A stretch of DNA of 64,000 nt from positions 129,022 through 193,021 of the forward strand of contig NZ_BAVQ01000036.1 in the NCBI RefSeq assembly GCF_000524475.1, written 5' to 3'. The notes under the pieces are model-generated. The model did no database searches. It worked only from the letters and a program-made list of their open reading frames with translations, and was not told the DNA's origin. The DNA is from Tomitella biformata AHU 1821. Lineage in GTDB: Bacteria; Actinomycetota; Actinomycetes; Mycobacteriales; Mycobacteriaceae. Positions within the stretch are counted from its first letter, which is position 1; each line of letters begins with the position of its first letter. Positions 25,215-43,679 of the stretch are shown piece after piece. The translations under genes were made by a program, and so were the position numbers.

Positions 25215-25747
25215 ACTTTTGCTGGCTCCGCGGCTCGAATGATCGTTAAGATCTAGTCGTATCGGCGATTCCGGAGAAGATCGGCCACCTTATTTCCGCC
25301 CAGCCGGATGGGCGAATGGGGCCTCATGCGATCGTCAACTCCGCCTGGCCTGTAGTTCGGTGCCGGTGGCCGCCGGGTCGAGGTCCGCCGGCGTGCAGAT
25401 CCAGAGGGCTCCTCGGGTGATCGGCCTGGTCTCCCGCATGTGGGGACGGCTATGGGGGCCCATTTTCGCTGGCCGAGCGCTGGGCGGCTTTCGGGTTGGG
25501 CGTGCGGGTTTGGGCGTGGGGGGCAAACTGAGAACGATCTGTCGACGCGGCCCGGCCTCGGTGGACGGGTGTGGCGCAACCGTGGCCTTGGCGGCAGGTC
25601 TGTTGACGGTCGGGGGGAGGTTGAACCTACTCTGCCTGGCCGGCCCCTTGACGTTTGTGATTGCCATCACTAGCGTACAGAGTGTCAGAACACATCTGAG
25701 TGGGTGCGAATACCGAGTGCCCTGTCTAGCCGTCAGTAGGAGTTGCC
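25215..25747. other. Intergenic region before the amidohydrolase gene
   Basis: More than 500 bp without a supported gene between divergent transcription units. It is GC-rich with G-runs around 25,440-25,620. The end next to the amidohydrolase carries the shared promoter/operator module (25648-25691). A Pro/Arg-rich minus-strand frame exists but lacks a ribosome site. Confidence 0.5.
25648..25691 (+). promoter_or_regulatory. Shared promoter/operator module, copy 1 (amidohydrolase)
   Basis: TTGAC (25648-25652), 4 nt, GTGA (25657-25660), 6 nt, TCAC (25667-25670), 12 nt, TGTCAGAAC (25683-25691). The GTGA-N6-TCAC core is extended by T on the left (TGTGA), close to the CRP/GlxR consensus TGTGA-N6-TCACA. 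The -10 (AGCGTA, 25672-25677, 18-bp spacer) is poor, so activation or another factor may be needed. The same arrangement occurs at two other promoters. Confidence 0.6.
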
Positions 25748-26968
25748 GTGCCGCTTCAGGACCATATGCATTTGATCTCCGTGGATGACCACTTGATCGA
25801 GCCGCCAAACGTGTGGACCGATCGATTGCCGAGGAAGTTCCAAGAACAGGGCCCTCGCATCGTCGAGATGGACATGAGCCAGAACTCGGGCGACGAAGGC
25901 CTGTCGGCGCTGCTGCTCGAGACGGCGCGTCAAGGCAAGGCCGCGCCCGCCGCGCCGAAGCTGGCGGAGGTGTGGACCTACGAGGGTCGGATCTACCCCA
26001 ACATTGGGCTCAACGCGGTGGCCGGCAAGAAGCCCCAGGAATACGGGATGGACCCCACGCGCTACTCCGACATGCTGCCGGGCTGTTACGACCCGGTCGC
26101 CCGCCTTGCCGACATGGACCTCGACGGGGTCGAGGCGACGATGTCTTTCCCCTCGTTCCCTAGGTTTGCCGGAACTGTGTTCCTGGAGGGCAAGGACAAG
26201 GAGCTCGCGCTGCTTTCGGTCAAGGCGTGGAACGACTTCCACCTGGACGAGTGGGCGGCGGCGGCGCCGGACCGCTTCATCCCGCAGATCATCCTGCCGC
26301 TGTGGGATCCACAGGAATCGGCGAAGGAAATCTACCGCTGCGCGGCCAAGGGCGCCCGGGCGATCTCCTTCCCGGAGAACACCGTGGGCCTGGGTCTGCC
26401 CTCGTTCTACACCGACCACTGGGATCCGGTCTTCCGCGCCGCGGAGGAGACGAAGATGCCGCTGAATATGCACTTCGGCTCGTCGGGCAAGGCCCCGATG
26501 ACCTCTCCCGAGGCGCCGATGGCTGTGATGATCGCGCTGTTCGGCACCAACTCCATGTACGCGACGACGGATCTGCTGTTCTCGCCGGTGTTCTACAAGT
26601 TCCCGGACCTCAAGGTGGCGATGTCCGAGGGCGGCATCGGCTGGATGCCGTACCTGCTCGAGCGGATCGACCTCACGTGGGAGAAGCATCGCTGGTACCA
26701 GAACGTGAACAAGGAGATCCGTCCCTCGGATATCTTCCGCAAGAATATTTTCGGGTGCTTCATCGACGACTTCGAGGGTGTGGCCCGGCGGCACCAGATC
26801 GGGATCGAGAACATCATGTGGGAGGGCGACTACCCGCACTCGGACTCCAACTGGCCGAATAGCCGCCAGTACACGGAGAAGCTGTTGCAGGAGGTTCCGG
26901 ATGCCGAGGCGCACCAGATCGTGGAGCTCAACGCCCGCAGGCTCTACAACTTCCCGCGCGCCAACTGA
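25748..26968 (+). CDS. Amidohydrolase-family (amidohydrolase 2) protein
   Basis: A 406-aa TIM-barrel metal-dependent hydrolase or decarboxylase of the amidohydrolase-2 (ACMSD-like) group. The N-terminal metal motif appears as SVDDHLIEPP, a central histidine in NMHFGSSG, and the late acidic/His segment as EGDYPHSDSNWP. Homologues often sit in aromatic and steroid catabolic clusters. The GTG at 25748 has AGGAG 7 nt upstream. It is the first gene behind the shared operator module and is followed by a 72-aa gene. Confidence 0.85.
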   Translation: MPLQDHMHLISVDDHLIEPPNVWTDRLPRKFQEQGPRIVEMDMSQNSGDEGLSALLLETARQGKAAPAAPKLAEVWTYEGRIYPNIGLNAVAGKKPQEYGMDPTRYSDMLPGCYDPVARLADMDLDGVEATMSFPSFPRFAGTVFLEGKDKELALLSVKAWNDFHLDEWAAAAPDRFIPQIILPLWDPQESAKEIYRCAAKGARAISFPENTVGLGLPSFYTDHWDPVFRAAEETKMPLNMHFGSSGKAPMTSPEAPMAVMIALFGTNSMYATTDLLFSPVFYKFPDLKVAMSEGGIGWMPYLLERIDLTWEKHRWYQNVNKEIRPSDIFRKNIFGCFIDDFEGVARRHQIGIENIMWEGDYPHSDSNWPNSRQYTEKLLQEVPDAEAHQIVELNARRLYNFPRAN

Positions 26969-27004
26969 GCCGACGACGAGCATAGAAGGGGCTTGGGGCG
27001 AATC

Positions 27005-27223
27005 ATGGCAGAAGAGCAGGATATCGCGGCCGCGGACTGGACCGATCAGGACCTGCTGACGCGCGAGTTGGCGGCGGAGCGGCTCGTAGAGGAGATGGCG
27101 AAGCTGCGGGTGCGTAAGAGCGAGCTCGAGGCCTTGCCCGGCGACGACCCCGGCACCGCATCGTCGTTGGCCTTGGTCAGCCGACGGCTTACCGCGATGG
27201 AGAACGTGCACAAGACGCTCTGA
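27005..27223 (+). CDS. Small acidic helical protein, unknown function
   Basis: A 72-aa protein not recognised. It is predicted almost wholly helical, with charged heptad-like stretches (LAAERLVEEMAKLRVRKSELEAL and LVSRRLTAMENVHKTL) that could form a short coiled coil. Codon use matches the neighbours. It lies 36 nt after the amidohydrolase gene and directly before a strong terminator, so it probably shares the amidohydrolase transcript and may be an accessory subunit. Confidence 0.6.
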   Translation: MAEEQDIAAADWTDQDLLTRELAAERLVEEMAKLRVRKSELEALPGDDPGTASSLALVSRRLTAMENVHKTL

Positions 27224-27226
27224 CAC

Positions 27227-27263
27227 CAGGGGTGTGTCCACCGATTCGGTGGCCACACCCCTG
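27227..27263 (+). terminator. Terminator behind the amidohydrolase unit
   Basis: A 16-bp stem with one mismatch (27227-27242 pairing with 27248-27263) and a GATTC loop, 3 nt past the stop of the 72-aa gene, followed by TGCTTTG. It marks the end of the two-gene amidohydrolase unit. Confidence 0.8.
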
Positions 27264-27316
27264 TGCTTTGTGGAAATGGTTGATGGCAACGAGTTTGACG
27301 ACGTTGAGGAGTCGAT

Positions 27317-28105
27317 ATGGGAACAAGGCTAGACGGCAAGGTTGTGCTGATCTCTGGATCCACCCGAGGCATCGGGCGGTCGATGGCCGAGCACTTCGCG
27401 TCGGAGGGCGCGAAGGTCGCGGTGACCGGGCGCACGGTCGACCGTGGCGAGAAGGTGGTCGCCCGCATTCGGGAGGTCGGCGGGGAGGCGGAGTTCTTCC
27501 CCCTGGACGTCACCTCGGAGGACAGCGTCAGGGACGTGGTCGCCGCGACCGTGGCCCGCTTCGGGGCGCTCACCACCCTGGTGAACAACGCCGCGCCGAC
27601 GGAGGCGGTGGCCACCACGATCAAGCCGATCCACGAATACTCCAATGCGGAGTGGCAGCGGATCATGACAGGCACGGTCACCGGCAACGTGTTCTGGGCC
27701 TCGAAGTACGCCTGGCCCCATCTGGTCGCGGCGGAGGGCGCATCAATACTGAATATCTCCTCGGGCCAGTCGCTTTCGGGCTTCAAGGGATTCGGCGCCT
27801 ATGGCGCCGCCAAGTCCGCCGTCAACAGCCTCACCCGGTCCCTGGCGGTAGAGGGCAGCGCCGACGGGATCCGCGCGAACTGCATCCTGGTGGGCCGGGT
27901 GGTTGCGGGCCGAGGCGACTCCGGCCACCACACAGGCGGGGGGCGGCTGACGCGCATCGGCAACCCCATGGACATCGCCCACGCGGCGACCTGGCTGGTC
28001 TCGGACGAGGCGGCCTTCGCCACCGGATCGATGGTCACTGTCGATGGCGGGTTCTCGATCAACGGCGACGCGGTGCAGGATGCGGAGGCATCGGCGCCTA
28101 GCTGA
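27317..28105 (+). CDS. SDR-family oxidoreductase
   Basis: A 262-aa classical SDR: SGSTRGIG (residues 14-21), a basic residue after the second strand (TGRTVDR, favouring NADP), NNAAP at the NNAG position, catalytic Ser in NISSGQS, and YGAAK. The C-terminal TVDGGF is typical. GAGGAG precedes the ATG. It is monocistronic between a terminator and a convergent isochorismatase-like gene. The substrate is unknown, presumably a hydroxyl or keto group on a pathway intermediate. Confidence 0.87.
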   Translation: MGTRLDGKVVLISGSTRGIGRSMAEHFASEGAKVAVTGRTVDRGEKVVARIREVGGEAEFFPLDVTSEDSVRDVVAATVARFGALTTLVNNAAPTEAVATTIKPIHEYSNAEWQRIMTGTVTGNVFWASKYAWPHLVAAEGASILNISSGQSLSGFKGFGAYGAAKSAVNSLTRSLAVEGSADGIRANCILVGRVVAGRGDSGHHTGGGRLTRIGNPMDIAHAATWLVSDEAAFATGSMVTVDGGFSINGDAVQDAEASAPS

Positions 28106-28128
28106 GCTAGCCCGCTGAGCGCGAGACG

Positions 28129-28770
28129 CTACGGCGTCGCGTACCCCGGCAGCCGGCCGACGACGTCGGCGGCCGGGGTCACCCGGGTGAGGATGCCCAA
28201 GAGGTTCGCGACCATGAACTCGTGCGCCTCGGCGGACGAGCCGGCGGTGCAGTCCTCGGCGAGTACGACGTCGTAGCCGCGGTTGACGGCGTCCAGCGCC
28301 AGTCCGGGCAGGGCCACGTTGGTGGACACCCCTGCCAGGACGACGGTCTGGACCCGCTGCAGGCGCAGGAGTGCGTCGAGGTCTGTGCCGTAGAACGCGG
28401 TGAGGCCGGTCGCGCGACGGCTGACCACATCGGAGGGCTCCGGTCCGAGCTCGGCGGGGATTTCCACATCGGTGGTGCCGACGGTCATCCGGTGATGACG
28501 CAGGGCCATGGTGCCCAGGTACGAGTTGGGGAGCATGCCCTTTTGGTCTTCCCGATGCTCGATGACGCAGTGGAATACGGGCAGGCCTCTGGCCCGGAAG
28601 GCGCGGGCCAGCTCGGCGGTGCGCGTCACGACGTCGCGGGCGGCGACCTGCTCGGCGAGCCCGGGGGAGACGGTCCGCTCTGCCTCGAGGATGCCCCGCT
28701 GGCACTCGCTGATGATCAGCGCAGGCGCCACGTAGTGGGAGTGGGAGCTGGCCGGTGCGGCTGTGGACAT
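28129..28770 (-). CDS. Isochorismatase-family hydrolase lacking the catalytic Cys
   Basis: A 213-aa cysteine-hydrolase (isochorismatase) fold protein. The fold is clear from PALIISECQRGIL at the start, GLPVFHCVIEHR, and LAGVSTNVALPGLALDAVNRGYDVVLAEDC. In family members of the type TGVxTNxCVxxTAxDA the nucleophilic cysteine would fall where this protein has Ala in STNVAL, and the usual first Asp is Glu in ISECQ. A nicotinamidase- or carbamoylase-type thiol mechanism is therefore unlikely; isochorismatases proper also lack the Cys. Function unknown. Confidence 0.82.
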   Translation of the reverse strand: MSTAAPASSHSHYVAPALIISECQRGILEAERTVSPGLAEQVAARDVVTRTAELARAFRARGLPVFHCVIEHREDQKGMLPNSYLGTMALRHHRMTVGTTDVEIPAELGPEPSDVVSRRATGLTAFYGTDLDALLRLQRVQTVVLAGVSTNVALPGLALDAVNRGYDVVLAEDCTAGSSAEAHEFMVANLLGILTRVTPAADVVGRLPGYATP

Positions 28771-29017
28771 GGTGTTTCCAATCTGCCGGTCCCACGCTCC
28801 TCAAAAGTGACGCTATGTCCGATTGGGAGAGTGAGCTTTGTGAAGTCTCTCGTAACCTAGCAGGTCAAGATGGTTGTAAAATAGTGACACGAATGCCAGA
28901 ATCGGTCTAACAAAGAATCTGGATTGCGTCGCGGTCAGCGAGTTCGGGCGGCATCGTGCCGCTGGCTGAGGTCGTGGGGTATGCGGAATCCACTTGAGTC
29001 GAAGCGAGGCAGTGCCA

Positions 29018-30283
29018 ATGACGAAAACCGACAGTGTGCAGAGATTGCCGTTGGTCGATCTGGACTGGTGGCAGAGCAACCCTGGCGAGCGAGACGCGTT
29101 GTTCGCGTCGTTGCGGGCGGACAACCCCCGCCCCTTCGTGCCGCTGGGCACGGGTCCGGACGGCGTGGTGAAGGGGTTTTGGGCCCTGACCCAGCACGAG
29201 GACGTCGTGGCCGTGAGCCGTCGGCCGGAGGATTTCGGCTCGGGCGACGGCACCCAGATCTTCGACCAGCCGCAGAAGCTCCGCGAGTACCGCGGCTCGA
29301 TCATCGACATGGACAACCCCGAGCACTCGCGGCTGCGACGGATCGTCTCGCGCGGGTTCACCAGCCGCAACCTCGGCGCGCTACGCGGCGAGGTCGAGAA
29401 CACGGTCTTGGAGATCCTCGACCAGATGCCCAAGTCTGGGGAATGCGACTTCGTCAGCGAATTCGCGGCGGTTCTGCCACTGCGGATCATTTGCGAGCTC
29501 CTGGGCATCCCGCGCGAGCATGAGGCGTTCCTGCTCGAGGCGACGAATGTCATCCTGGGCGCGTCGGATGCGGAGTACATCCCCGACCAGTCCGCGCATG
29601 GGATCGGCCTGGCGGTCACCTCCGCCAGCGAGGAGCTGATCCGGCTGCTCAGCGGACTGGCGGAGGCGCGGATCGAGAATCCTGAGGATGACCTGATCTC
29701 GCAGCTAGTCGCGGCCAAGGAGGACGAGAACCTCACGCCCGGCGAGATGGCGCGATTCTTCATCCTGCTGGTCGGGGCCGGCAATGAGACCACCCGCAAC
29801 GTCATCACCCACGGGCTGCTGACGCTGACGCTGTTCCCCGACCAACGCGACAAGTGGCTCTCGGACTACGAGGCCCACTCTCGCACCGCCATCGAGGAGT
29901 TGCTGCGCTGGGCCAGCCCCGTAGTGCACATGCGCCGCACCGTCACCAGGGACGGGGTGATGCTGGGCGATCAGGAATTCTCCAAGGGCGACAAGGTCGT
30001 CATGTGGTACGGATCGGCGAACCGGGACGAGTCTGTCTTCGAGGATCCCTTCACCTTCGATATTGAACGAGACCCGAACCCCCACTTGGCCTTCGGTGCC
30101 CCGGGGCCGCACTTCTGCTTGGGCGCGCACCTGGCGCGGCTCGAGTTGGACGTGGCGTTCCGCGAGCTGTTCAGGCGGTTCCCGGACATCAAGGCCGTCG
30201 GCGAGCCGGACCGGCTCCGATCGAACTTCCTCAACGGGATCAAGCACCTGCAGGCCACCTACACCCACACCGAAGCGAGCTGA
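29018..30283 (+). CDS. Cytochrome P450
   Basis: A 421-aa soluble bacterial P450. The I-helix oxygen-activation motif is GAGNETTRN (about residue 254), ExxR is in IEELLRW, and the haem-binding loop FGAPGPHFCLGAH gives the cysteine ligand near residue 367. The general look resembles actinobacterial CYP125/CYP142/CYP124-type steroid and isoprenoid oxidases, but the subfamily cannot be fixed by eye. The ATG at 29018 has GAGG 9 nt upstream and gives the usual length. No ferredoxin or reductase gene is adjacent. An enoyl-CoA hydratase gene follows 6 nt later. Confidence 0.92.
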   Translation: MTKTDSVQRLPLVDLDWWQSNPGERDALFASLRADNPRPFVPLGTGPDGVVKGFWALTQHEDVVAVSRRPEDFGSGDGTQIFDQPQKLREYRGSIIDMDNPEHSRLRRIVSRGFTSRNLGALRGEVENTVLEILDQMPKSGECDFVSEFAAVLPLRIICELLGIPREHEAFLLEATNVILGASDAEYIPDQSAHGIGLAVTSASEELIRLLSGLAEARIENPEDDLISQLVAAKEDENLTPGEMARFFILLVGAGNETTRNVITHGLLTLTLFPDQRDKWLSDYEAHSRTAIEELLRWASPVVHMRRTVTRDGVMLGDQEFSKGDKVVMWYGSANRDESVFEDPFTFDIERDPNPHLAFGAPGPHFCLGAHLARLELDVAFRELFRRFPDIKAVGEPDRLRSNFLNGIKHLQATYTHTEAS

Positions 30284-30289
30284 TCGACT

Positions 30290-31108
30290 GTGACGACCAC
30301 TGAGCCGAGCCTGGGCACGACGGTCCTCCGCGATGTCGCCGACGGCGTCATGACCATCACCCTCAACAGGCCCGATGCGGCCAACGCCATCCGGCCCGAC
30401 GCGCGCAACGCGCTGATCGAGCTGTTCAACGAGGCGAGTGGCGACCCCGAGATCCGGGTGGTGGTGCTCCGCTCGACAGGTCGACACTTCTGCGGCGGCG
30501 CGGACGTGGTCCGACTGGCCGACGGGCATAAGAAGAACGTCAAGCGGGTGACCGGCGCGATGCACGTGATCATGACGGGCGCGCAGCGATTGATCGCCTC
30601 GGTCCTGGATTGCGCGAAACCTGTTGTGGCGGTGGTACAAGGCGGTGCCGCGGGGCTGGGCGCACATCTCGCGTATGCGGCAGATCTGATCGTGGCTACC
30701 GACGACGCCTATTTCGCGGAGTCCTTTGTCAAGCGCGGCCTGGTGATCGACGGCGGCGGCGCGTACATGCTGCCCCGGCGGATCGGGATGCAGAAGGCCA
30801 AGGAAATGGCGTTCTTCGGCGAGAAGCTGCCGGCGCACGAGGCGCTGACTCTGGGATTGGTCAACAAGGTGGTGCCGGCGGCGGAGCTCGAGGCCGCGGT
30901 GGCCGACTACGTCGACCGGCTGGCTGTCGCTCCCACGAGCGCGATCGCGCTGGGCAAGAGGCTGTTCAACGACTCGCCAGACACTGATAGGGCCAGCGCG
31001 TTCGTGGCGGAGGCCATGGCGCAGGAGATCCAGTCCTTCTCGCACGACGCCAAAGAGGGCATCGCGGCGTTCGTCGAGAAGCGCGACACGAATTACTTGG
31101 GATGGTGA
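30290..31108 (+). CDS. Enoyl-CoA hydratase/isomerase family protein
   Basis: A 272-aa crotonase-fold protein: ITLNRPDAANAIR, the oxyanion-hole loop FCGGADVVRL, and GGAAGLGAHLAYAADL, where the first catalytic Glu of classical hydratases is His. The second acid lies in FAESFVKRGLVIDGG. It may be a hydratase with altered mechanism, an isomerase or a hydrolase acting on a CoA ester. It starts at GTG 6 nt after the P450 stop and is followed 7 nt later by the DUF35 gene, so it is part of one operon. Confidence 0.84.
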   Translation: MTTTEPSLGTTVLRDVADGVMTITLNRPDAANAIRPDARNALIELFNEASGDPEIRVVVLRSTGRHFCGGADVVRLADGHKKNVKRVTGAMHVIMTGAQRLIASVLDCAKPVVAVVQGGAAGLGAHLAYAADLIVATDDAYFAESFVKRGLVIDGGGAYMLPRRIGMQKAKEMAFFGEKLPAHEALTLGLVNKVVPAAELEAAVADYVDRLAVAPTSAIALGKRLFNDSPDTDRASAFVAEAMAQEIQSFSHDAKEGIAAFVEKRDTNYLGW

Positions 31109-31115
31109 ATCGCAG

Positions 31116-31532
31116 ATGAGTGACAACAAGCCCCGCGCGGACCTGCCGACGATCGAGGACGCGTCCAAGCCGTACTGGGACGCGGCGAAGGCGGGAAAGC
31201 TGCTGATCGCGAAGTGCCTGGCCTGCGAGAAGGTCCACCACTACCCGCGGCCGTTCTGCCCGTCGTGCTGGAGCGAGGAGATCGTCCAGGTGGAGGCCTC
31301 CGGCCGGGGCACCCTCTACACCTATTCCACGGTGTACATGAACGATCTGCATCCGTTCAAGGAGCGGCTCCCGTATATCGCGGCGATGGTCGAACTCGAG
31401 GAGGGGCCGCGCCTGATGACCAACATGGTGGACTGCGAGCCGGCCGATCTCGAAGTGGGCATGCCCGTGCAGGTCGCCTTCCGTCCCATCACCGATGAGA
31501 TCGACGCGACCGTCTTCCAGCCTGTCCCCTGA
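31116..31532 (+). CDS. DUF35 OB-fold protein with rubredoxin-like zinc ribbon
   Basis: A 138-aa protein with an N-terminal zinc ribbon (CLAC near residue 36 and CPSC about 15 residues on) and a C-terminal OB fold (GRGTLYTYSTVY to the end). DUF35 proteins bind acyl-CoA and form complexes with lipid-transfer thiolases/aldolases or acyl-CoA hydratases, for example in steroid side-chain breakdown. No thiolase is adjacent here; the two in the window lie at 47.6 and 54.2 kb. It may instead partner the adjacent hydratase-like protein. Confidence 0.86.
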   Translation: MSDNKPRADLPTIEDASKPYWDAAKAGKLLIAKCLACEKVHHYPRPFCPSCWSEEIVQVEASGRGTLYTYSTVYMNDLHPFKERLPYIAAMVELEEGPRLMTNMVDCEPADLEVGMPVQVAFRPITDEIDATVFQPVP

Positions 31533-31603
31533 CTGGCGGAATCCGGCCCAGAGCAGTACGTAATTGTCCATGAGTAGGCACTGAACAGGGAGATAGAGAC
31601 AAC

Positions 31604-32527
31604 ATGAGCGGATTGCTCGACGGCAAAGTTGCCGTAGTCACCGGGTCCGGCCACGGCATCGGCCGCGGGCACGCACTCGAATTGGCCAAGCACGGCGCCA
31701 CCGTCATCATCAACGACCTGGGCACGTCCATCGACGGCGAGGGCACCGGCAAGGTCGCCGACGAGGTCGTCCAGATCATCAAGGACCGTGGCGGCAAGGC
31801 GATCGCAGACTTCAGCGACGTCGGCGACGAAGCTCAGGTCGACCGGCTCGTCGAGCGGGCCTATGCCGAGCTGGGTCGCCTCGACATCGTGGTGAACAAC
31901 GCCGGCATCGTGCGGGACCGCGCGGTGTGGAACATGAGCGCCGACGACTTCGACCTCGTCATGCGGGTCCACGTGCGCGGCAGCTGGCTCACCAGCCGGG
32001 CGGTGGCACGCAAGTGGCGGGCGGAGTCGAAGGCCGCGGGCGCCCCGGTCTACGGCCGCATCATCAACACGACCTCCGGGGCTGGACTGCACGGACACTT
32101 CGGGCAGACCAACTATGGCGCCGCCAAGGCCGCTATCGTCGGGCTGACCCAGACCCTGAGCCTGGAACTGGCCTCCATCGGCGCGACGGTCAACGCGATC
32201 AGCCCCGGCGGGCGCACCCGTATGTCGGCGACGATGTCCGGTGGGCAGGCCGCCATCGAGCCCGACGAGCGCGGCGAGGACGAGTTCGACCCCAAGGACC
32301 CGTCGCTGGGCTCGCCAGTGGTGGCGTGGCTGGCAAGCCCCGAGGCCGCGCATGTGAGCGGACAGGTGATCCGGGCGATGGGCGAGGACATCCAGTGGCT
32401 GCGGGGCTGGACGCCCGCCGCAACCGTCTCCAATGGCGGCAAGCGCTGGGACGCGAACAAGTTGGGCGCAATCCTGGCGACTGACGTGTTCGGCACCCGC
32501 GCCCCGGGCCTGCGCTTCGGCGGCTAG
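31604..32527 (+). CDS. SDR, multifunctional-enzyme-type 3-hydroxyacyl-CoA dehydrogenase-like
   Basis: A 307-aa SDR related to the dehydrogenase domain of peroxisomal multifunctional enzyme 2 and actinobacterial (3R)-hydroxyacyl-CoA dehydrogenases. It shows TGSGHGIG, NDLGTSIDGEG after the second strand (Asp favours NAD), NNAGIVRDRA, NTTSGAGLHGHFGQTNYGAAK with catalytic Ser/Tyr/Lys, and NAISPGGRTRM. The C-terminal ~60-residue extension is normal for the subgroup. Likely role: oxidation of a 3-hydroxyacyl-CoA. GGGAG lies upstream of the ATG. Confidence 0.86.
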   Translation: MSGLLDGKVAVVTGSGHGIGRGHALELAKHGATVIINDLGTSIDGEGTGKVADEVVQIIKDRGGKAIADFSDVGDEAQVDRLVERAYAELGRLDIVVNNAGIVRDRAVWNMSADDFDLVMRVHVRGSWLTSRAVARKWRAESKAAGAPVYGRIINTTSGAGLHGHFGQTNYGAAKAAIVGLTQTLSLELASIGATVNAISPGGRTRMSATMSGGQAAIEPDERGEDEFDPKDPSLGSPVVAWLASPEAAHVSGQVIRAMGEDIQWLRGWTPAATVSNGGKRWDANKLGAILATDVFGTRAPGLRFGG

Positions 32528-32548
32528 CTGGAAGAAGACACGGGGCCA

Positions 32549-32587
32549 CTGCCGCTCCGAGCCCTGCAGTGGGGCTCGGAGCGGCAG
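32549..32587 (+). terminator. Perfect 16-bp hairpin between two SDR genes
   Basis: A 16-bp perfect stem (32549-32564 with 32572-32587) and a 7-nt loop TGCAGTG, 22 nt past one stop and 20 nt before the next start. It can act as a terminator; since the downstream gene has the same direction and no clear promoter, it may be a partial terminator that reduces expression of the SDR-BVMO-hydrolase part. Confidence 0.75.
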
Positions 32588-32606
32588 AACTGAGGAAGGG
32601 CAGCAA

Positions 32607-33368: not shown

Positions 33369-33404
33369 CGCGCGAGGCAAACTACCCCTAGGAAAGTAGA
33401 GCCA

Positions 33405-36162: not shown

Positions 36163-36166
36163 CGTC

Positions 36167-37105
36167 GTGGCCTACCGTCTCGATCCGGAATTGCGCGCGG
36201 CGGCAGAGCGATTCCCGGCGCCCGACCTCCTCGATCCGGCGGCGGCGCGCGCGGCGAGCGCGGCCCGCCGGCGTATCGACCCCGGGGCCGCTATGGGCGA
36301 CGTGGGCGTGGACGCCGCCGACCACGTTGTGGCGCGGCCCCAAGGTTCGCCGCTGCGGGTCCGGGTATACCGCCCGCGCCGCGAGCAGGACCTCGTCCCC
36401 GGAATACTGCATCTGCACTCGGGCGGTTTTGTCATGGGCTCCGTCGATGCGGCGGATGTGCGGAATATGGCGTTGAGCAGCGCTGTCGGGGCCGTGATCG
36501 TGGCGGTGGAGTACCGCTTGGCGCCCGAGCATGTGTACCCGGCAGCGCTCGACGACGCGGCGCTGGCGCTGGCGTGGATGGTCACGCAGGCCGGCAAGCT
36601 CGGCGTCGACGTCGAACGGATCGCGCTGCACGGCCGAAGCGCGGGCGGGGGTCTCGCGGCGGCGCTGGCACTGCGAACCCGCGACGAGTCCGGCCCACGA
36701 GTTTGTTTTCAGTATCTCAGCGCGCCCCAGCTCGACGACCGGTGCGACACAGCCAGCATGCGCCGGTTCGTGGACACTCCGATGTGGACCCGGCGCAGCG
36801 CGCAGCAGAGCTGGGGGCACTACCTCGGGCCGGGAGCCGCGCCCACCGAATATGCGGCCCCAGCCCGGGCCGTCGACCTCTCGGGTCTGCCGGCGGCCTA
36901 TATCGGGGTGATGGAGTTCGACCCCATGCGGGATGAGGCGTTGGGCTACGCGGGCGCGCTCGCGGCGGCGGGGGTGCCGGTGGAGGCCCACCTGTTTCCC
37001 GGCACGTTCCACTGCTCCGCGGTGTTGACCGACTCCGCGATCTCGCGCCGAGAGAGTGCGGAGGAAGTCGCGGTGTTGCGTGCGGCACTGCGGCGGGCCG
37101 ACTGA
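36167..37105 (+). CDS. HSL-family (type IV) esterase
   Basis: A 312-aa alpha/beta-hydrolase of the hormone-sensitive-lipase group. It carries the oxyanion-hole motif HSGGF (HGG type, about residue 85), VEYRLAPEHVYPAALDD with the family's YRLAPE, the nucleophile motif GRSAGG, and the catalytic acid/His region GVMEFDPMRDEAL and FPGTFH. It starts at GTG 4 nt after the previous stop. With the preceding hydrolase it forms a BVMO-hydrolase-esterase trio. The 3' end is 1 nt from the convergent flavoprotein gene. Confidence 0.88.
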   Translation: MAYRLDPELRAAAERFPAPDLLDPAAARAASAARRRIDPGAAMGDVGVDAADHVVARPQGSPLRVRVYRPRREQDLVPGILHLHSGGFVMGSVDAADVRNMALSSAVGAVIVAVEYRLAPEHVYPAALDDAALALAWMVTQAGKLGVDVERIALHGRSAGGGLAAALALRTRDESGPRVCFQYLSAPQLDDRCDTASMRRFVDTPMWTRRSAQQSWGHYLGPGAAPTEYAAPARAVDLSGLPAAYIGVMEFDPMRDEALGYAGALAAAGVPVEAHLFPGTFHCSAVLTDSAISRRESAEEVAVLRAALRRAD

Positions 37106-37106
37106 C

Positions 37107-38717
37107 TCAGCCGAGCGCGAGATCGCGGCCGGCTAGATACCCCATGGTCATCGCGGGTCCGAGAGTGCCGCCGGCCCCTGGGTAACCCGCACCGGTCGGG
37201 TGCGCGGACGCGTTCCCGACCGTGTACAGGCCCGGAATCGGTGCGCCGGCGAGGTCGAGCGCCCGCGCCCGGCCGTCGGTCCGCACTCCGCCGCTGGTGC
37301 CGAAGGCGCCGGGCACAAGTTCGACGCCGTAGTACGGCGGCGCGTCGAGCGGCGCCAGCGCGGGGTTCGGGTGGGGGTTCGCGGCGTCCCCATAGAATTC
37401 GTCGAACACGTTGGCGCCCCGGTGGAAATCAGGGTCCACGCCGCGGATCGCCCCGGAGTTGAACCGCGCGACGGTGGACTCGAGGGCGGCGCCGTCGACG
37501 TCAAGCCCCGCGGCCAACTCCGAGAGCGTGGGCGCAGAGGCGATCCACTCGGGGACGTCACTGCCGGCGCGATGGCTGAGGAAGCCGTAACGCTCCAGGA
37601 ACGACTGGTCGAATACCACGAACGCCGGCAGATCCGGGGTGGCGCCGGTGCTATCCCGTTGGATCATCGATCGGGTGAGGTCGTTGTAGTTCTGCGACTC
37701 GTTGGCAAAACGCTTGCCGGCGCGGTTGACCATGATGCTGCCCGGGCCCTGCCGTTCGGCGCGGACCATCGTGCCCACCGGCCGACCGTCGGTCTGCTCG
37801 CCGGGGACCACCACCATCGGCACCCACCATGCTTGGTCGAGGTTGGCCAGTGCGGCGCCCCGCTCCGCGGCCATCCGGAGCCCGTCGCCCGTGTTGTGCG
37901 GCGGGCTGCACGTCGTCTGGAGCGGTCCCGTGAGGTGCTCGCCGACGAGCTGCGGATTCCACTCGAAACCGCCGCAGGCCAGGACAACGCCTCGCTGGGC
38001 GTGCAGTGCCAGGCCGTCTGCCTCGACCCCGGACACGCGGCCCGAGTCGCGCAGCAGCGACTCCACCCGGACTCCGGTGGCCAACGCCACCCCCAGTGAT
38101 CGGCACGCCTGGAGCAGTGCGGCGATCAGGGCATTGCCTTTCGCGACTATGCCGGCCGCGGCGCGCTCTTGCAGCTCGGCCCAGGGGAAGTTCAGCCAGG
38201 GTCCCCATTCCCTGAACTCGCTCATGGAGAACGGGAGCTGCTTGTGCGGGCGCAGGGCCTGCCGCAACGGCCCCAGAAGGGCGCCATCGTAATTGCGCAC
38301 CTGCAACGCCCGGCCGGTCCCGAAGCCATCGAAATCGGGACGGTAGTCGGGGAAGTCGGTGGCTGCGTCGAAGTGCAGGTCGCATTCCGAGCGGACGAAC
38401 TCGATCATCTCGGGGCCGGCGGCGACTACCGCGTCGAGCACCTCGCCAGGGGTGCGGCCGCGGCACACCGATTCAAGGTAGCCGCGAGCGGCCGCAGGGG
38501 AGTCGGGCACGCCTGCCTCCCGCTGGTAGGGATTGCATGGCACCCACAGGGTGCCGGCGGAGATCGCCGAGGTGCCGCCGAAATAGTCCGATCGCTCGAG
38601 GACCGCCACGGAGAGGCCACGGCTGGCGGCCGCGGCCGCCGCGACCAGCCCCGCCGCGCCGGAGCCGACGACGACCACGTCAAAGGTCTTGAGGTCCAGG
38701 GTGGTCCACGCCCTCAC
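37107..38717 (-). CDS. 3-Ketosteroid-Delta1-dehydrogenase-like flavoprotein
   Basis: A 536-aa FAD_binding_2 flavoprotein. The dinucleotide motif VVVGSGAAGLVAA is at residues ~13-25, GGTSAISAGTLWVP follows, and the C-terminus has NASAHPTGAGYPGAGGTLGPAMTMGYLAGR, the arrangement of KstD-type dehydrogenases. These remove hydrogens next to a ring ketone; fumarate-reductase relatives share the fold, so the steroid substrate is not proven. The GTG at 38717 overlaps the MBL stop (GTGA); the longer reading from 38750 adds a basic tail. It is the last gene of the MBL-MBL-flavoprotein operon. Confidence 0.85.
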   Translation of the reverse strand: MRAWTTLDLKTFDVVVVGSGAAGLVAAAAAASRGLSVAVLERSDYFGGTSAISAGTLWVPCNPYQREAGVPDSPAAARGYLESVCRGRTPGEVLDAVVAAGPEMIEFVRSECDLHFDAATDFPDYRPDFDGFGTGRALQVRNYDGALLGPLRQALRPHKQLPFSMSEFREWGPWLNFPWAELQERAAAGIVAKGNALIAALLQACRSLGVALATGVRVESLLRDSGRVSGVEADGLALHAQRGVVLACGGFEWNPQLVGEHLTGPLQTTCSPPHNTGDGLRMAAERGAALANLDQAWWVPMVVVPGEQTDGRPVGTMVRAERQGPGSIMVNRAGKRFANESQNYNDLTRSMIQRDSTGATPDLPAFVVFDQSFLERYGFLSHRAGSDVPEWIASAPTLSELAAGLDVDGAALESTVARFNSGAIRGVDPDFHRGANVFDEFYGDAANPHPNPALAPLDAPPYYGVELVPGAFGTSGGVRTDGRARALDLAGAPIPGLYTVGNASAHPTGAGYPGAGGTLGPAMTMGYLAGRDLALG

Positions 38718-39568
38718 GAAGCGTCCTCGGTGGGCGCGGTGGGCGCCCACCGCGCCTCGACGAGATGGGTGCGCTTACGGCTCTCCGCCATTCCCGCCTG
38801 CAGCAGCGGGATCATGGCGTCCAAGGTGTTGATGACGCTGCCATGCGCAGGAGCCACCAGCGCGGGCGGGTAACGGTCGAACAGCTCCGCCATGTCGGGC
38901 TCGCTGTGCGTGGCGTCGACATGGCGGGTCCAGAACAGGGCCCGCTCGTTGAGGAACACTGTCTGCTCAAGATCGGGCTCCGCAGGCAGCTCGCCGGAGT
39001 ACAGCGCGCACTCGCCGGCGAGGTGATGGTGCGAATAGGAGAACCCGTCGGCCACAAACATGATTCGAGCGCCGGTGTCATAGGCCCACATCGTGTTGGG
39101 CAGATCGCGCCAGACTGCGGGCAGCGTGATGACGGAACGGCCGCCGAGGTCGACTTCGTCGCCCACCGCCGAGGGCTGGAGGTGGGCTTCGAGCTGCGGG
39201 TAGTACAGGTGGTAGTCGCGGGTGTCGCCGACGATGGTCAATTGCGGATACCGCCGGGCCAGGTGCGGCAAATTGCCCGCGTGCGGCATCTCGGGATGGG
39301 TCGGCAGCACGTAGTCGAGTGGCCGGTCCCCGAGGATCTGGTCTAGCGCAGCCTCGACCACGTCCCAGTGCGAGGGGTGGCCGGTGTCGATCAGCAGGGT
39401 TTTGTCCTCGCCGACGATCAGGTAGGTGGAGACGTGGCCATGCCAGGTCGCCTCGCCATAGAGGAACTTGAGGCAATCGCCCAGCCAGTGCACGCCCGGC
39501 GCAATCTCCCTTGGCAGGTCGCGTAGTTCGGTGGATTTTGACACGTTGCCCTCTGCTCTCGTAGTCAC
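38714..39568 (-). CDS. Flavodiiron-type MBL-fold protein 1
   Basis: A 284-aa metallo-beta-lactamase-fold protein resembling the oxygen-reduction domain of flavodiiron proteins but without a flavodoxin domain. The metal loop reads THPEMPHAG (H-x-E-x-P-H; the family D is Pro), with VADGF for the bridging acid and APAHGS for the last His; the middle His is not obvious (LPAVWRDLPNTM). It may bind metal in an altered way. The ATG overlaps the stop of the second MBL gene, and its own stop overlaps the flavoprotein start. Confidence 0.8.
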   Translation of the reverse strand: MTTRAEGNVSKSTELRDLPREIAPGVHWLGDCLKFLYGEATWHGHVSTYLIVGEDKTLLIDTGHPSHWDVVEAALDQILGDRPLDYVLPTHPEMPHAGNLPHLARRYPQLTIVGDTRDYHLYYPQLEAHLQPSAVGDEVDLGGRSVITLPAVWRDLPNTMWAYDTGARIMFVADGFSYSHHHLAGECALYSGELPAEPDLEQTVFLNERALFWTRHVDATHSEPDMAELFDRYPPALVAPAHGSVINTLDAMIPLLQAGMAESRKRTHLVEARWAPTAPTEDAS

Positions 39569-40386
39569 GACTGGACACAGGTCTCGAGCAGTGACTGTGT
39601 CGCGGCGTAATAGAACTCGACCGTCTCGGGGCCGCGCATGACACGGCCGTGCCCGGGCGCGATGATGCGGATGTCGCGCGTGGCGAACAACCGTTCCAGC
39701 TCTGCGGCAAACGGTCTGGTGTCGGCCCTCAACAGCCAGTCGAACTTGGTGAACAGCCGCGGCGCCAGATCGGCCAGCTCGAGCGTCTCGGGAGGGGCAT
39801 CGCGCACGAGGCCCTCGAGCCCGGCGTTGTGCAGACCCTCGAAGCCGAGGCCGTCTGAGGTGAACAAGGCGCCGGTGGCCTCGTCGAACAACCAGAATGT
39901 GGTGAGCACTCGCAGCGAGGTCGCCACCAGCTCGACGTCTCGGCCGGGACCCAGGCTCAGCTTGTCGCCCGCCCGCTTGCGCAGGATCTCAATGGCGTGG
40001 TCCGTTCTGATCTGCTCTTGCGGGCTCACGTCGTCGAAGAAGTCGAATGGGTTGCTGACGCCGCCGCCGAAGATGCTTACCACGTTGAATTGTTGGATCA
40101 GCGGTCCCAGGTTCGTGAGGCAATCACCCTCAAACCTGGTGCAGAACACAGACAACTCGACCTCCGGGCCGATCAGGCCGGAAAGTTGGCCGAGGACGGT
40201 CTGCTCGTGGGCCGCGACGCCAGTGTCCACCAGCAGCGCTGTGTCTGTCTCCAGCAGGAGATACGCGGCGATCGGCTCATGCGGGTAGGCGTCCGGGGCT
40301 GCCCAGGAGATTCGGCCATCATTCGGCACCGTGTCGCCGAGGGCATACAGCTTGCCGGGCACGATTTCCACAGGATCGGGGCTCAT
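39565..40386 (-). CDS. Flavodiiron-type MBL-fold protein 2, degenerate metal site
   Basis: A 273-aa paralogue-like MBL-fold protein. LLVDTGVAAHEQT and the final APGHGRV are conserved, as is SDGLG, but the loop corresponding to H-x-E-x-D-H reads CTRFEGDCLTN, so both histidines are replaced (Arg and Cys). It may therefore be a non-catalytic partner of MBL protein 1. It is the first gene of the operon, about 180 nt downstream of the shared promoter/operator module. Coupling to the next gene is by ATGA. Confidence 0.78.
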   Translation of the reverse strand: MSPDPVEIVPGKLYALGDTVPNDGRISWAAPDAYPHEPIAAYLLLETDTALLVDTGVAAHEQTVLGQLSGLIGPEVELSVFCTRFEGDCLTNLGPLIQQFNVVSIFGGGVSNPFDFFDDVSPQEQIRTDHAIEILRKRAGDKLSLGPGRDVELVATSLRVLTTFWLFDEATGALFTSDGLGFEGLHNAGLEGLVRDAPPETLELADLAPRLFTKFDWLLRADTRPFAAELERLFATRDIRIIAPGHGRVMRGPETVEFYYAATQSLLETCVQS

Positions 40387-40745
40387 CGGGTACTCCGTCT
40401 CGCAGAACGATGGTCACAATCTGACGATCCATTCACTATGGGTTTGGGGATTGAAGCGGGAATCCGCCCCATTCTCTGGGTTGAAGACGCCTATTATCAG
40501 CATATTCACCGTATTTGGCGACCGAGCTGGTCCACGCGCTGTATCCGCAGCAATCACATTCTGACAGTATTGAACATAAGTGATGTGGCTCACCTGTGTC
40601 AATCATCGGGCGCGGCCCTGTGCTCTCCGGGGTCGGGGCTGAGCGCGCCGCTGCTATCCCCGCCGACGCCGTCCGAATCTAGATATCGGTGTTAGATTCG
40701 GGGGTGCCGAAGCGCAGATCTGCTGGCAGACAAGGAGAACGACGA
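40387..40745. other. Divergent intergenic region, MBL operon / DUF2889 gene
   Basis: 359 bp, less GC-rich than the flanking genes. It contains the shared module (40558-40603) serving the MBL operon with a long leader of about 180 nt, and an AAGGAG ribosome site for the DUF2889 gene. No small gene is supported. Confidence 0.55.
40558..40603 (-). promoter_or_regulatory. Shared promoter/operator module, copy 2 (MBL/flavoprotein operon)
   Basis: On the minus strand: -35 TTGACA (40602-40597), 18-bp spacer, -10 TATGTT (40578-40573), a good sigma-70-type promoter. Inside the spacer lies GTGA-N6-TCAC (40593-40580), and TGTCAGAAT (40566-40558) follows 13 nt later. TTGACA and TGTCA also form an outer inverted repeat. 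A protein bound between -35 and -10 would repress. Confidence 0.7.
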
Positions 40746-41819
40746 ATGGCCGAGAACCTGCTAGCGCCAACCCCCGGGATCCAGGAGCCGGCTCCAGACA
40801 CGCCGAATCGGCGGCCGCGCTCGATTCGGCGCACCACCTCGGTCGACATTCTTCGGCCGGCGGGCCCGACGGGGGTCCTCGAGCTGGTCGGCTCTGGTCG
40901 GGACCTGTCCACATCTGCCGACGGCGTCACTGAGGCGGTGGCTGAGGCCCGGATGGCGGTCGACATCGACTTCGCGCCGGGCCAGATCGTCAGGAGGGTC
41001 GATTGCACGCCGATGGTGACGGGGCTGGGCGCGCTTGTGGGGGCCAGAGCCTCCTCGGGTTTCCGTAAGGCGCTCAGCGGCGCGCTCGGTCTCGACGGCT
41101 CACCGGCGCAGGGGAGCCGGGCGGGCTCGAATGCGATAAGCGTCCTGCATCGACTGCTGGACGATGTGCCTGTGGCCACCGTGATCTCCGGTTTCGCGTT
41201 GACCCATGAGTTGCCGGCCGAGGATTTAGCGAGGATCAGCCGTGGTGGCGAGCGGCAGCGGCGCTCCGGATCGCCGGCGGACTACTGCGCGGGATTCGTG
41301 TCGGGCGGCACCATGATGAGGGGCGTTGAGCGGGCCGGGGTTTCACCGCTCATCATCGGGCCTCCTGCGCCAGACGTCGTGAACGGGGCCGATCCTGAAG
41401 CGTGGCATTCGATGTCGCGGATGCCCGTGAAGTCGATGCGGCGGCTGCGGCGCATGGATGTCTGGATGGATGGTCCGGCTCCAGCCGGCCGGGTGCGGGT
41501 AGACGCGATGTTCCGGGATAGCTACGTCGACGCAGGCGGGGACGAGATGGTGGTCCACGAATACCAGGTCGATCTCGAGCTGCGGGCGGATTCGAAGGTG
41601 CTAGACAGGTTGGTCGTCACACCGCGGGTGCTGCCCTGGCCGGAGTGCCCGGGCGCGGTCGCCGGCGCCCAGCGGCTCGTTGGCCACACGGTCGCCGCCG
41701 CCGGCGAACTCGTGGGCCAGGAATTCCGAGGAGTGTCTAGCTGCACCCACCTGAATGACCTGCTGCGCTCGCTCGGGGACGTGACTATCCTGTCAGAATT
41801 CCTGCTCCGCGGCCGCTAG
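40746..41819 (+). CDS. DUF2889 domain protein
   Basis: A 357-aa cytosolic protein matching DUF2889: RRTTSVDILRP near the start, LVGSGRDL, and a C-terminal CTHLNDLLRSLGDVTIL segment. The family is widespread in actinobacterial and proteobacterial catabolic clusters; no activity is established to my knowledge. AAGGAG lies 9 nt upstream of the ATG at 40746. It is transcribed away from the MBL operon and ends at a strong bidirectional terminator. Confidence 0.75.
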   Translation: MAENLLAPTPGIQEPAPDTPNRRPRSIRRTTSVDILRPAGPTGVLELVGSGRDLSTSADGVTEAVAEARMAVDIDFAPGQIVRRVDCTPMVTGLGALVGARASSGFRKALSGALGLDGSPAQGSRAGSNAISVLHRLLDDVPVATVISGFALTHELPAEDLARISRGGERQRRSGSPADYCAGFVSGGTMMRGVERAGVSPLIIGPPAPDVVNGADPEAWHSMSRMPVKSMRRLRRMDVWMDGPAPAGRVRVDAMFRDSYVDAGGDEMVVHEYQVDLELRADSKVLDRLVVTPRVLPWPECPGAVAGAQRLVGHTVAAAGELVGQEFRGVSSCTHLNDLLRSLGDVTILSEFLLRGR

Positions 41820-41829
41820 GCGTGGAAAC

Positions 41830-41861
41830 GGGCCGGCCTCCGGGGTCGCGGAGGCCGGCCC
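41830..41861. terminator. Bidirectional terminator, DUF2889 gene / solute-binding protein
   Basis: A perfect 13-bp stem (GGGCCGGCCTCCG / CGGAGGCCGGCCC) with a 6-nt loop, 10 nt past the DUF2889 stop and 25 nt before the convergent gene's stop. Typical GC-rich bidirectional terminator. Confidence 0.85.
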
Positions 41862-41886
41862 GCAGCCGGTGCCAGACTCGTGGCGG

Positions 41887-43476
41887 CTACGAAGTCTTGC
41901 CCACGTACCTCATGTCCACGATGCCGACGAAGTCTCCCTGGCCGGCGGTGGTGATCCCAACGACATCGTCGGTGTAGGCCATCTGTGTCGGCACGCCGCA
42001 GAGGAACACGTCGAACGCGTCTTGCGCCGCGATTCCGGACGCCTGTGAATACAGGTCGGTCCGCTCGTCATCGCTGATGTTCGGGTCAAACGACGCTGTC
42101 ACCAGGTCCTGGAAGTTCTGCGGCGCGAGGGTGGGGAATCGCTGCGGCACCATGTAGTTCGTGCGCAGTGTCTGGGACGAGAAGGGGAATGGGAGACGGG
42201 GGTTGAGGAGCGAGTGCCCGCCCTCCGCAAACTTTAGCGCTGCGTCGTTGGACGCCATCGGCATGATATTGACCTTGACGCCGACCTCGCCCAGCTGCGC
42301 CTGCAGCGCCGTGGCCATCTCCTGCTGCGGTGAGAGCCCGGCGGTGTGGGTGAGGTTGATAGTCAGGTCGCTGGGCGCGTTCGCCGCGACAAGCAACTCG
42401 CGAGCCTTCGCCGGGTCGTAGTTGTAAAGGTCGTCGACCTTCTCGCTGTGCCCGTCCACGCCGGCCGGCAGCGGCTGTGTGACCGGCTCGCAGATTCCGT
42501 TGAGCAGGCCCTCGTTGATGCCCTCTCGGTCGACGGCGTAATTGAGCGCCTGTCGCACGCGGGCGTCTTCTAGCCCTGGCTGGCCGATGTCTAGCTGGAG
42601 CGCGTAGAACTGCCCCACAGGGAAGGTGTGCAGCTTGTATTTCGGCTGCGCGATCAGCGTCTTGACGTCGTCGGCCTGGCCGGCCTTCACGAGGATGGCG
42701 TCGACCTGGCCGCTGCGAAACGCGTTGAGCCGGGCATTGTCGTCGGTGATGCCCACGATCTCGAGGGTTGCCGGCTTCTGGGCCTCGGGGTCCCAATATC
42801 CGTCGTGACGCTTGTAGGTGATGCGGTCGCCGGGGCGGATGGTCTCAGGGATATACGGTCCGGAGCCGGCCGTGTCCACGGTGAGGTCCACGCCGCCGTC
42901 GAGTGCCAGCGGATTGATGATGGAGGCCTCGGTCGAGGTGAGGACGGCGGGCAGGTCTGCCGCGAGGCGATTGGTGCTGATCTTGACCGTTGCCGGATCG
43001 ACCGCGTCGACGGCGGAGATCATCGACAGGGAGCCGGCGACGCGGGCCTGTTTGGGGTCGCGGGCGCGGTCCAGGCTGCGGGCGACTGCCGTCGCGTCGA
43101 CGGGGGTGCCGTCGTGGAAGGTGGCGTCGTCGCGCAGGTGAAAGGTGACGGACATCCCGTCGTCCGCGAAATCCCAGGACTCCGCGAGCATTGGCGTGAC
43201 CTCGGGGCCGGTCACGGCCTGGGTCAGGCGGTCGTAGACGGGGGACAGGTAGTTGAAGTCGACCGAGTAGTTCGTGGATTGGTGGGGGTCGAGGTTGGTG
43301 GGACCGAGGGTCCAGGCCATGGAGAACTTGGCGTTTCTGTCAATCTCCCCCGTCGACTCGGCTGCGGAATCTCCCGCGCTGCTGCCGCACGCGGTGGCGG
43401 CAATGGCGATTATCGCGAGGAGCGCGCTAGACCTTAGTTTGAATGCGGGGGGCCATCCTGGGGATTTTCCGGGCAT
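41887..43476 (-). CDS. Family 5 ABC-type solute-binding lipoprotein
   Basis: A 529-aa extracellular solute-binding protein of the peptide/nickel/opine (SBP_bac_5) family. The signal peptide ends in a lipobox (ATAC, Cys30) and is followed by a Ser/Ala linker; mature landmarks are TLDPHQS-like TNLDPHQSTN, MLAESWDFADDGMSVTFHLRDDATFHDGTPVDA, and VRQALNYAVDREGIN. The ATG at 43476 gives a proper signal peptide; the longer frame does not. No permease or ATPase genes are adjacent, so it is an orphan. It is preceded by the shared operator module, which suggests it captures the pathway's substrate. Confidence 0.9.
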   Translation of the reverse strand: MPGKSPGWPPAFKLRSSALLAIIAIAATACGSSAGDSAAESTGEIDRNAKFSMAWTLGPTNLDPHQSTNYSVDFNYLSPVYDRLTQAVTGPEVTPMLAESWDFADDGMSVTFHLRDDATFHDGTPVDATAVARSLDRARDPKQARVAGSLSMISAVDAVDPATVKISTNRLAADLPAVLTSTEASIINPLALDGGVDLTVDTAGSGPYIPETIRPGDRITYKRHDGYWDPEAQKPATLEIVGITDDNARLNAFRSGQVDAILVKAGQADDVKTLIAQPKYKLHTFPVGQFYALQLDIGQPGLEDARVRQALNYAVDREGINEGLLNGICEPVTQPLPAGVDGHSEKVDDLYNYDPAKARELLVAANAPSDLTINLTHTAGLSPQQEMATALQAQLGEVGVKVNIMPMASNDAALKFAEGGHSLLNPRLPFPFSSQTLRTNYMVPQRFPTLAPQNFQDLVTASFDPNISDDERTDLYSQASGIAAQDAFDVFLCGVPTQMAYTDDVVGITTAGQGDFVGIVDMRYVGKTS

Positions 43477-43634
43477 AGCCGGCCACCTTTCTCGGGTGAT
43501 GCACTGTGGGAACTTGCTCGGAAACCGTCGCTGGAAACCTGGGCCGACGGCACGATCATCAGACTCGGATTCGGGAGCCCTCGGGGAGAGGGCTCGATCC
43601 GCGGATGGTTGGGCCAGATGTTGACTCGAATGGT

Positions 43635-43679
43635 ATTCTGACAGCCTGAACATAGGTGACCTGAATCACTCATGTCAAT
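43635..43679 (-). promoter_or_regulatory. Shared promoter/operator module, copy 3 (solute-binding protein)
   Basis: Minus strand: -35 TTGACA (43678-43673), 18-bp spacer with GTGA-N6-TCAC (43669-43656), -10 TATGTT (43654-43649), and TGTCAGAAT (43643-43635) 12 nt after TCAC. The layout equals copy 2 to within 1 nt, while the surrounding sequence differs. Confidence 0.7.

Follow-up and report, generated by a model that had tools for sequence, protein, structure and literature searches.

Whether three promoters that share one arrangement of short motifs belong to one regulon, and which proteins would read them, is the question raised by a stretch of 64,000 nucleotides from Tomitella biformata AHU 1821 (contig NZ_BAVQ01000036.1, positions 129,022 to 193,021; hereafter, the window). 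The arrangement, TTGAC-N4-GTGA-N6-TCAC-N12/13-TGTCAGAA, was present at three places, S1, S2, and S3, no more than one base from where a preliminary description had put it in proposing a new regulon. From sequence comparison, we lean towards reading the three sites as parts of one conserved catabolic regulon that is specific to the cluster and has two-input promoters, whichever proteins read them. The original proposal stood in that the pattern is rare elsewhere and conserved at orthologues of the gene behind S1; it did not stand in that the module splits into two elements, its outer repeat forms no dyad, and one common binder is a candidate only.

All three sites had the form of sigma-A promoters, with TTGAC(A) and TAnnnT 17 to 18 bp apart. 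The TTGACA-N18-TATGTT promoters previously recognized at S2 and S3 were correct, and S1, overlooked at that stage, was also found to be sigma-A-like (TTGACG-N17-TAGCGT). The gap from TCAC to TGTCAGAA was 12, 13, and 12 bases at S1, S2, and S3, respectively, and a promoter scan allowing 16 to 18 bases between the hexamers gave no match in the window beyond these three. The outer TTGAC and TGTCA, earlier taken as inverted halves, do not form a symmetric repeat because TTGAC is the -35 hexamer and the spacing is unequal, with 4 bases on one side of the core and 12 or 13 on the other. TGAC-N5/6-GTCA was also considered as a true operator palindrome and was dropped, its spacing varying from 5 to 7.

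In the 4.71-Mb draft genome (112 contigs), TTGACN4GTGAN6TCAC had exactly 3 exact matches, all in the window, while the reversed-pattern control had 0. With up to 1 mismatch allowed, the window contained 3 matches against 0.03 expected, and TGTCAGAA occurred 6 times against 0.63 expected; neither count was reached in any of 100 shuffles. GTGAN6TCAC alone was marginal (3 against 0.9 expected, with 3 reached in 5 of 100 shuffles). Across 301 family genomes, 8 carried the full spaced pattern, at 10 places in all (the 3 in the window genome included), with a reversed control of 0. The pattern is thus rare elsewhere, contrary to one of the conditions that would have refuted the original proposal. 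The full module was not found in four other genomes of the same genus.

All 7 full-pattern places outside the window genome preceded an S1-gene orthologue; 6 of these orthologues were aligned and were 85 to 88% identical, the seventh being that of G061 (G and L numbers denote genomes and loci). Upstream DNA was read for 36 of the 80 loci obtained by searching named genomes. Among S1-gene orthologues at least 77% identical, some genomes being counted twice, the module was found upstream of 16/18, in Rhodococcus, Williamsia, Gordonia, Nocardia, and Nocardioides, and was absent from the other two, both from Streptomyces. In those 16, TTGACN4GTGAN6TCACTA lay 73 to 129 bases before the start, followed by (T/C)GTCAGA. 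The exact module was found in none of the 18 more distant homologues read. A few Mycobacterium and Mycolicibacterium homologues (∼54 to 56% identity) had a degenerate form with GTCAG further downstream; the degenerate forms in L069, L079, and L097 scored 12 to 16, and the reversed control reached 14. For the first gene behind S2, the single orthologue in 300 other genomes (G145) keeps a -10 TAATGT and CGTCAGA. For S3, a homologue in G194 of the solute-binding protein (SBP), 64% identical over the aligned part, has an exact palindrome at a promoter-like position, and a second SBP gene of that genome has one with one half-site altered, also at a promoter-like position. Whole-module conservation at orthologues was therefore seen for S1 only, because the G145 promoter lacks the palindrome and the G194 SBP promoters lack the box. 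The S1 gene was present twice, with a module for each copy, in R. globerulus (L048 and L062), G194 (L044 and L206), and N. jiangxiensis (L053 and L120).

As judged from the promoters compared, the module is made up of two separable elements. The first is the GTGA/TCAC palindrome between -35 and -10, often of the form GTGA-Y-N-G-C-N-R-TCAC, and the second is a (T/C)GTCAGA box, which follows a sigma-A -10 by 5 to 9 bases and lies where transcription is predicted to start. The box was the commoner of the two in the cluster, and some cluster promoters carried just one of them. The two together (GTGAN6TCACN11-14TGTCAGA) were matched at 26 places across 401 family genomes, 22 of which had a match, compared with 2 control matches. 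Thirteen places were upstream of an S1-gene orthologue (S1 included) and four were at other cluster genes, namely S2, S3, L130, where a permease gene follows, and L151, where a short-chain dehydrogenase/reductase (SDR) follows. TAnnnT followed by GTCAGA within 4 to 9 bases was found 29 times in 17 cluster stretches (395 kb), against a mean of 1.6 and a maximum of 8 for 179 other letter orders; the count of 29 overstates independence because orthologous promoters are included. Similarly, (T/C)GTCAGA occurred 148 times in 18 loci, compared with 62 in the reversed control. Comparison showed that the arrangement exists, that it is conserved at the S1 gene, and that it is concentrated on the genes of one pathway cluster, with the module standing before different genes of that cluster and before orthologues in other genera. 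Since the promoter module is conserved and pathway linked, it very likely marks a regulon, and on these comparisons we have little doubt that the regulon is real.

The box without the palindrome was observed at the promoter of the hydrolase operon in the window, within a block also present in G171, G145, G184, G194, and G061 and, up to the box, in G367. It was likewise seen at the small-protein promoters of two Streptomyces and at an SDR-ligase pair of the window genome that lies on a separate contig (G000:C77:61412); a related SDR in G194 (L151) has both box and palindrome. The box just upstream of the luciferase-like monooxygenase gene is a weaker member because it lies just 2 nt after TATCAT. 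The box as the sole essential element was dropped, as two G194 SBP promoters have the palindrome without it. At the hydrolase promoter, a long block, CATAGTCnTATCGTATnnnnnTGTCAGA, was also seen upstream of the alpha/beta hydrolase gene in six further genomes (L155, L163, L165, L174, L175, and L208), followed by AACAA in those copies whose sequence extends that far. This conservation is longer than one -10 and one box would account for.

An order-wide scan for TTGACN4GTGAN6TCACTANNNT gave matches in 7 of 397 genomes, with 1 in the reversed control. At the 6 places outside the window genome, no GTCAG was found within 60 bases and the genes were unrelated; 5 of the 6 were upstream of one conserved protein of ∼400 amino acids with a regulator-like N terminus, which we take to belong to the ROK family. 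In five same-order genomes (L213 to L217), this protein was preceded by TTGACN4GTGAAnCAGGTCACTACCGT in four and by a variant in L213, without TGTCAGA. In three family genomes (L137, L139, and L140), TGTGATG-Y-C-W-GTCACC followed by TGTCAGACAAGTA was seen at another gene pair, perhaps marking a separate regulon whose boxes are similar.

Twenty of the 30 distinct promoters that combine palindrome and box had another same-strand (T/C)GTCAG, lying 102, 111 to 113, 121 to 122, or 129 to 133 bp upstream of the start box. When 13 promoters were aligned, the DNA between the start box and the upstream box was unalignable across genera. After collapsing to nine lineages, the observed concentration of phase was reached by 27 of 20,000 random sets, which hints that the phased upstream boxes might serve looping. 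Repression loops with two operators are established for lac, gal, and ara. The arrangement here, with one box at the start and another ∼100 to 130 bp upstream in rough phase, is alike and differs in that looping is a possibility suggested by spacing statistics.

Table 1. Positions of the features discussed, in window coordinates
Feature	Position	Strand	Remarks
TetR-family regulator, candidate reader	19199..19888	+	Pfam; relatives beside cluster in several genera
Box TGTCAGAA	21033..21040	-	Just upstream of luciferase-like monooxygenase gene 19992-21017
S1 module	25648..25690	+	Upstream of amidohydrolase-type gene 25748..26968
S1 parts			-35 TTGACG 25648-25653; palindrome GTGATTGCCATCAC 25657-25670; -10 TAGCGT 25671-25676; box TGTCAGAA 25683-25690
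Amidohydro_2 (PF04909) protein under S1	25748..26968	+	Nearest solved relatives DitZ (8uyr), PtmU3
Genes after S1 gene	26993..32527	+	76-amino-acid protein, SDR, P450 (CYP125/CYP124-like), enoyl-CoA hydratase, OB-fold protein, SDR; mostly conserved with S1 gene
Isochorismatase	within 26993..32527	-	
FAD_binding_2 protein under S2	37107-38750	-	Best NCBIfam match 4-oxocyclohexanecarboxylate 2-dehydrogenase, below cut-off
Metallo-beta-lactamase fold protein under S2	38714-39568	-	
273-amino-acid protein under S2	39565-40386	-	No Pfam or NCBIfam match; metallo-beta-lactamase type per preliminary description
S2 module	40559..40602	-	Upstream of operon 37107..40386
S2 parts			-35 TTGACA 40597-40602; palindrome GTGAGCCACATCAC 40580-40593; -10 TATGTT 40573-40578; box TGTCAGAA 40559-40566
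SBP_bac_5 solute-binding protein under S3	41887..43476	-	Listed open reading frame extends to 43653
S3 module	43636..43678	-	Upstream of solute-binding protein gene
S3 parts			-35 TTGACA 43673-43678; palindrome GTGATTCAGGTCAC 43656-43669; -10 TATGTT 43649-43654; box TGTCAGAA 43636-43643
Upstream box TGTCAGG	43739..43745	-	102 bp from S3 start box
Upstream box TGTCAGA	43811..43817	-	174 bp from S3 start box
Genes downstream of 53766-53786 promoter	46026..53566	-	Alpha/beta hydrolase, FAA hydrolase, HpcH/HpaI aldolase, two acyl-CoA dehydrogenases, thiolase, AMP-ligase
Hydrolase-operon promoter	53766..53786	-	Box TGTCAGAA 53766-53773 after -10 TATCGT 53781-53786; without palindrome; conserved block CATAGTCnTATCGTATnnnnnTGTCAGAAACAA

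The genes behind these promoters are listed in Table 1. In the PF04909 protein, D13, H15, H242, E294, D361, and H364 were invariant in the aligned orthologues and, when matched by spacing, are the counterparts of the metal ligands of AibH2 given in PMC7782822; an amidohydrolase-related dinuclear oxygenase group is described in PMC10811679. Because of the nearest solved relatives and the metal-ligand spacing, the product is probably such an oxygenase (DitZ/PtmU3/AibH2-like) and not a hydrolase. The 76-amino-acid protein directly after it (26993-27223) was conserved without a Pfam match, with small proteins 47 to 58% identical in the same place in L136, L150, L142/L043, and L046; it was rejected as a ferredoxin, its translation lacking cysteines. 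The cluster P450 is nearest to CYP125/CYP124, and the FAD enzyme under S2 appears to be of the ketosteroid/oxocyclohexanecarboxylate dehydrogenase kind, its match being below the cut-off. A Rieske oxygenase, acyl-CoA enzymes, and SBPs are also in the cluster. By our own reading, the ATG at 43476, which precedes a lipoprotein-like signal, is the likelier start of the S3 gene. From these enzymes, the pathway probably serves the use of a terpenoid- or steroid-like carbon source.

Control of these genes is probably by repression with two inputs. Both elements would be operators, placed so that a protein sitting there would obstruct RNA polymerase. The box would be read by a pathway-specific regulator, released on binding a pathway intermediate and most likely represented by the TetR-family protein at 19199-19888 and its relatives, and the palindrome would be read by a second regulator, perhaps of the CRP/GlxR type, giving catabolite repression. 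A bolder version, which we consider rather unlikely, is that a repressor bound to the start box and a phased upstream box loops over a spacer palindrome read by a global regulator, the composite unit having been kept, placed before new genes across actinobacterial genera, and made to run terpenoid- or steroid-like breakdown.

All 57 open reading frames (ORFs) chosen in the window by codon composition were searched against Pfam, and the regulators among them were the TetR protein, a MarR protein (1186-1704), and a BTAD-type protein (2833-6174). It had been remarked that no candidate regulator gene is adjacent to the sites. This is literally so, but the TetR gene lies 5.8 kb from S1, and in most of the other genomes examined that bear the module a relative of it stands next to the cluster. 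Relatives 56 to 62% identical stood beside cluster genes in G145, G184, G194, G401, G402, G403, G404, and Streptomyces L060, and others 36 to 38% identical were on the same contig, at most 25 kb from the module, in G171, G061, G043, G092, G304, G355, and G395. The TetR gene was therefore linked to the cluster in 16 genomes, the window's included, one of which (L060) lacks the module at its S1 gene. At a threshold of 1e-12, three genomes of the genus had no TetR match, and the full module is absent from them as well. In G372, of the N. nova/elegans group, the module contigs were under 9 kb and too short to judge linkage; no linkage was shown for G405. Against the KstR model of NCBIfam, the window TetR protein scored 20.8 bits with a cut-off of 280, and it was also far below the cut-off for FasR. 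The TetR catabolic and lipid regulators KstR, FasR, EthR, and Mce3R share with the system described here a TetR gene in a catabolic cluster and putative operators overlapping promoters. Their operators differ from the box, which is a single asymmetric heptamer, sometimes repeated in one orientation, with no clear palindrome. That this TetR protein reads the module is, on the sequence comparisons, possible rather than probable. In N. nova (L198; G372:C42), several TCAGAAT/ATTCTGA inverted repeats were observed upstream of a TetR gene ∼35% identical to that of the window.

Several observations weigh against the TetR assignment and the regulon as read here. The MarR and BTAD-type regulators are also in the window, far from the sites. 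G367 has the module and no TetR match at 1e-12, while in the N. nova/elegans group the TetR matches were only 35 to 37% identical, with none inside the fetched loci. The 36 to 38% class is not specific because G025, in which the module was not seen, has a 37% match; Streptomyces L060 has a 58% identical TetR protein without the module at its S1 gene. The upstream region of the TetR gene itself has a conserved cAGAATCGGATTACTC and no clear box or palindrome; it also has ACATCAGA, which is not the consensus box and, in our reading, is written with codons rare in such genomes. At neither G194 SBP gene (L044 6310 and 15821) was GTCAG found in the 160 bases after the palindrome, and 9 of the 26 places with palindrome and box were without a cluster gene in 3-kb loci, bar one weak SDR match. 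No box was found 102 to 133 bp upstream in 10 of the 30 promoters, S1 and S2 included, and the spacing ladder fits 9.5 to 10 bp better than 10.5 and depends on our own lineage grouping. The -10/box pattern totalled 28 against a control of 10 over nine genomes, and in the whole window genome (G000) it was not enriched (3 against 3). The box would therefore be meaningful inside the cluster and not everywhere.

A minority possibility that must be taken seriously is that some other regulator, or one that is unlinked, acts as the reader, for instance one of the GntR/FCD family. Genes of this family were found close to the cluster, in G194 (at L206 16069-16830) and in N. jiangxiensis (at L120 8138-8839), with 66 to 68% identical relatives of the G194 protein in three Williamsia genomes, 60 to 70 kb along the same contig; the missing TetR gene in G367 and the linkage not found in the N. 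nova group point the same way. However, the two GntR proteins are ∼30% identical, and neither matches other fetched module-bearing loci at E 1e-8. As common readers, the GntR genes were rejected, since none recurred beside the module. Two other candidate regulators were rejected: the protein of a conserved gene group, cluster 10, which by sequence and Pfam is a zinc-type dehydrogenase, and a 204-amino-acid ORF in G367 that has no Pfam match and adjoins a transposase-like ORF. A transposase-like gene was present within the cluster of that genome.

An unlikely reading is that ordinary CRP/GlxR sites between -35 and -10 account for the palindromes, with catabolite repression, an incidental TGTCAGA, and no pathway-specific regulon. 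GlxR is a global regulator of C. glutamicum promoters, as stated in PMC3917453. According to PMC4218801, CRP of M. smegmatis binds TGTGA-N6-TCACA and usually represses from start-adjacent sites, and mycobacterial CRP activates ahpC from -81.5. CRP/GlxR sites of Actinobacteria share with the palindrome the half-sites GTGA and TCAC and the 6-bp spacer, and TGTGAN6TCACA was above control in the ten genomes searched (63 against 9 in total; G194, 21 against 1; G372, 10 against 1; G000, 4 against 0; G061, 4 against 3). Within the cluster, the full TGTGA-N6-TCACA stands at one promoter (in L044, preceding the box at 18555), and boxless promoters with a spacer palindrome were found at unrelated genes as well as at the two G194 cluster SBP genes. 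Nevertheless, none of the four such sites of the window genome is inside the window, and none of the three sites has both outer bases of that consensus (S1, TGTGA..TCACT; S2, GGTGA..TCACT; S3, AGTGA..TCACC). The inner bases of 19 module palindromes were more constrained than those of 60 CRP-like sites, with position 1 never A and position 3 G in 58%. The module palindrome further differs in lying inside the -35/-10 spacer, in a 3' flank that is mostly T, and in its coupling to the TGTCAGA box. Within the cluster, that box shows strong enrichment after -10s and is retained at promoters lacking the palindrome. CRP as reader of the palindrome within a pathway-specific regulon is, like the TetR assignment, possible rather than probable.

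Even less probable is that TGTCAGA represents the transcript 5' end or a core promoter element (initially transcribed sequence) and not an operator. Its position 5 to 9 bases after the -10, where transcription should start, is consistent with this, but the second same-strand copies at 20 of 30 promoters, 102 to 133 bp upstream, lie outside the predicted transcript, and the gap from box to -10 varies by several bases. A chance likeness of strong promoters in a GC-rich genome, to which the near-chance count of GTGAN6TCAC alone would lend itself, is hardly credible given the genome-wide uniqueness, the family-wide rarity with low controls, the shuffle results, and the box enrichment after -10s, and is in effect refuted by the conservation across genera (16/18 orthologues).

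The regulon read here, with its palindrome and box, is ordinary in kind. Among the matches listed from open-licence PMC literature, no title describes the motif, which does not establish its absence from print. Two boxes and one TetR protein are named as directly testable. The searchable signature ties scattered genes, namely the oxygenase, the SBPs, the hydrolase operon, and the SDR-ligase pair on another contig, to one pathway. Because the promoter signature is shared, the gene set of the pathway may be defined from its promoters and not from neighbourhood alone.

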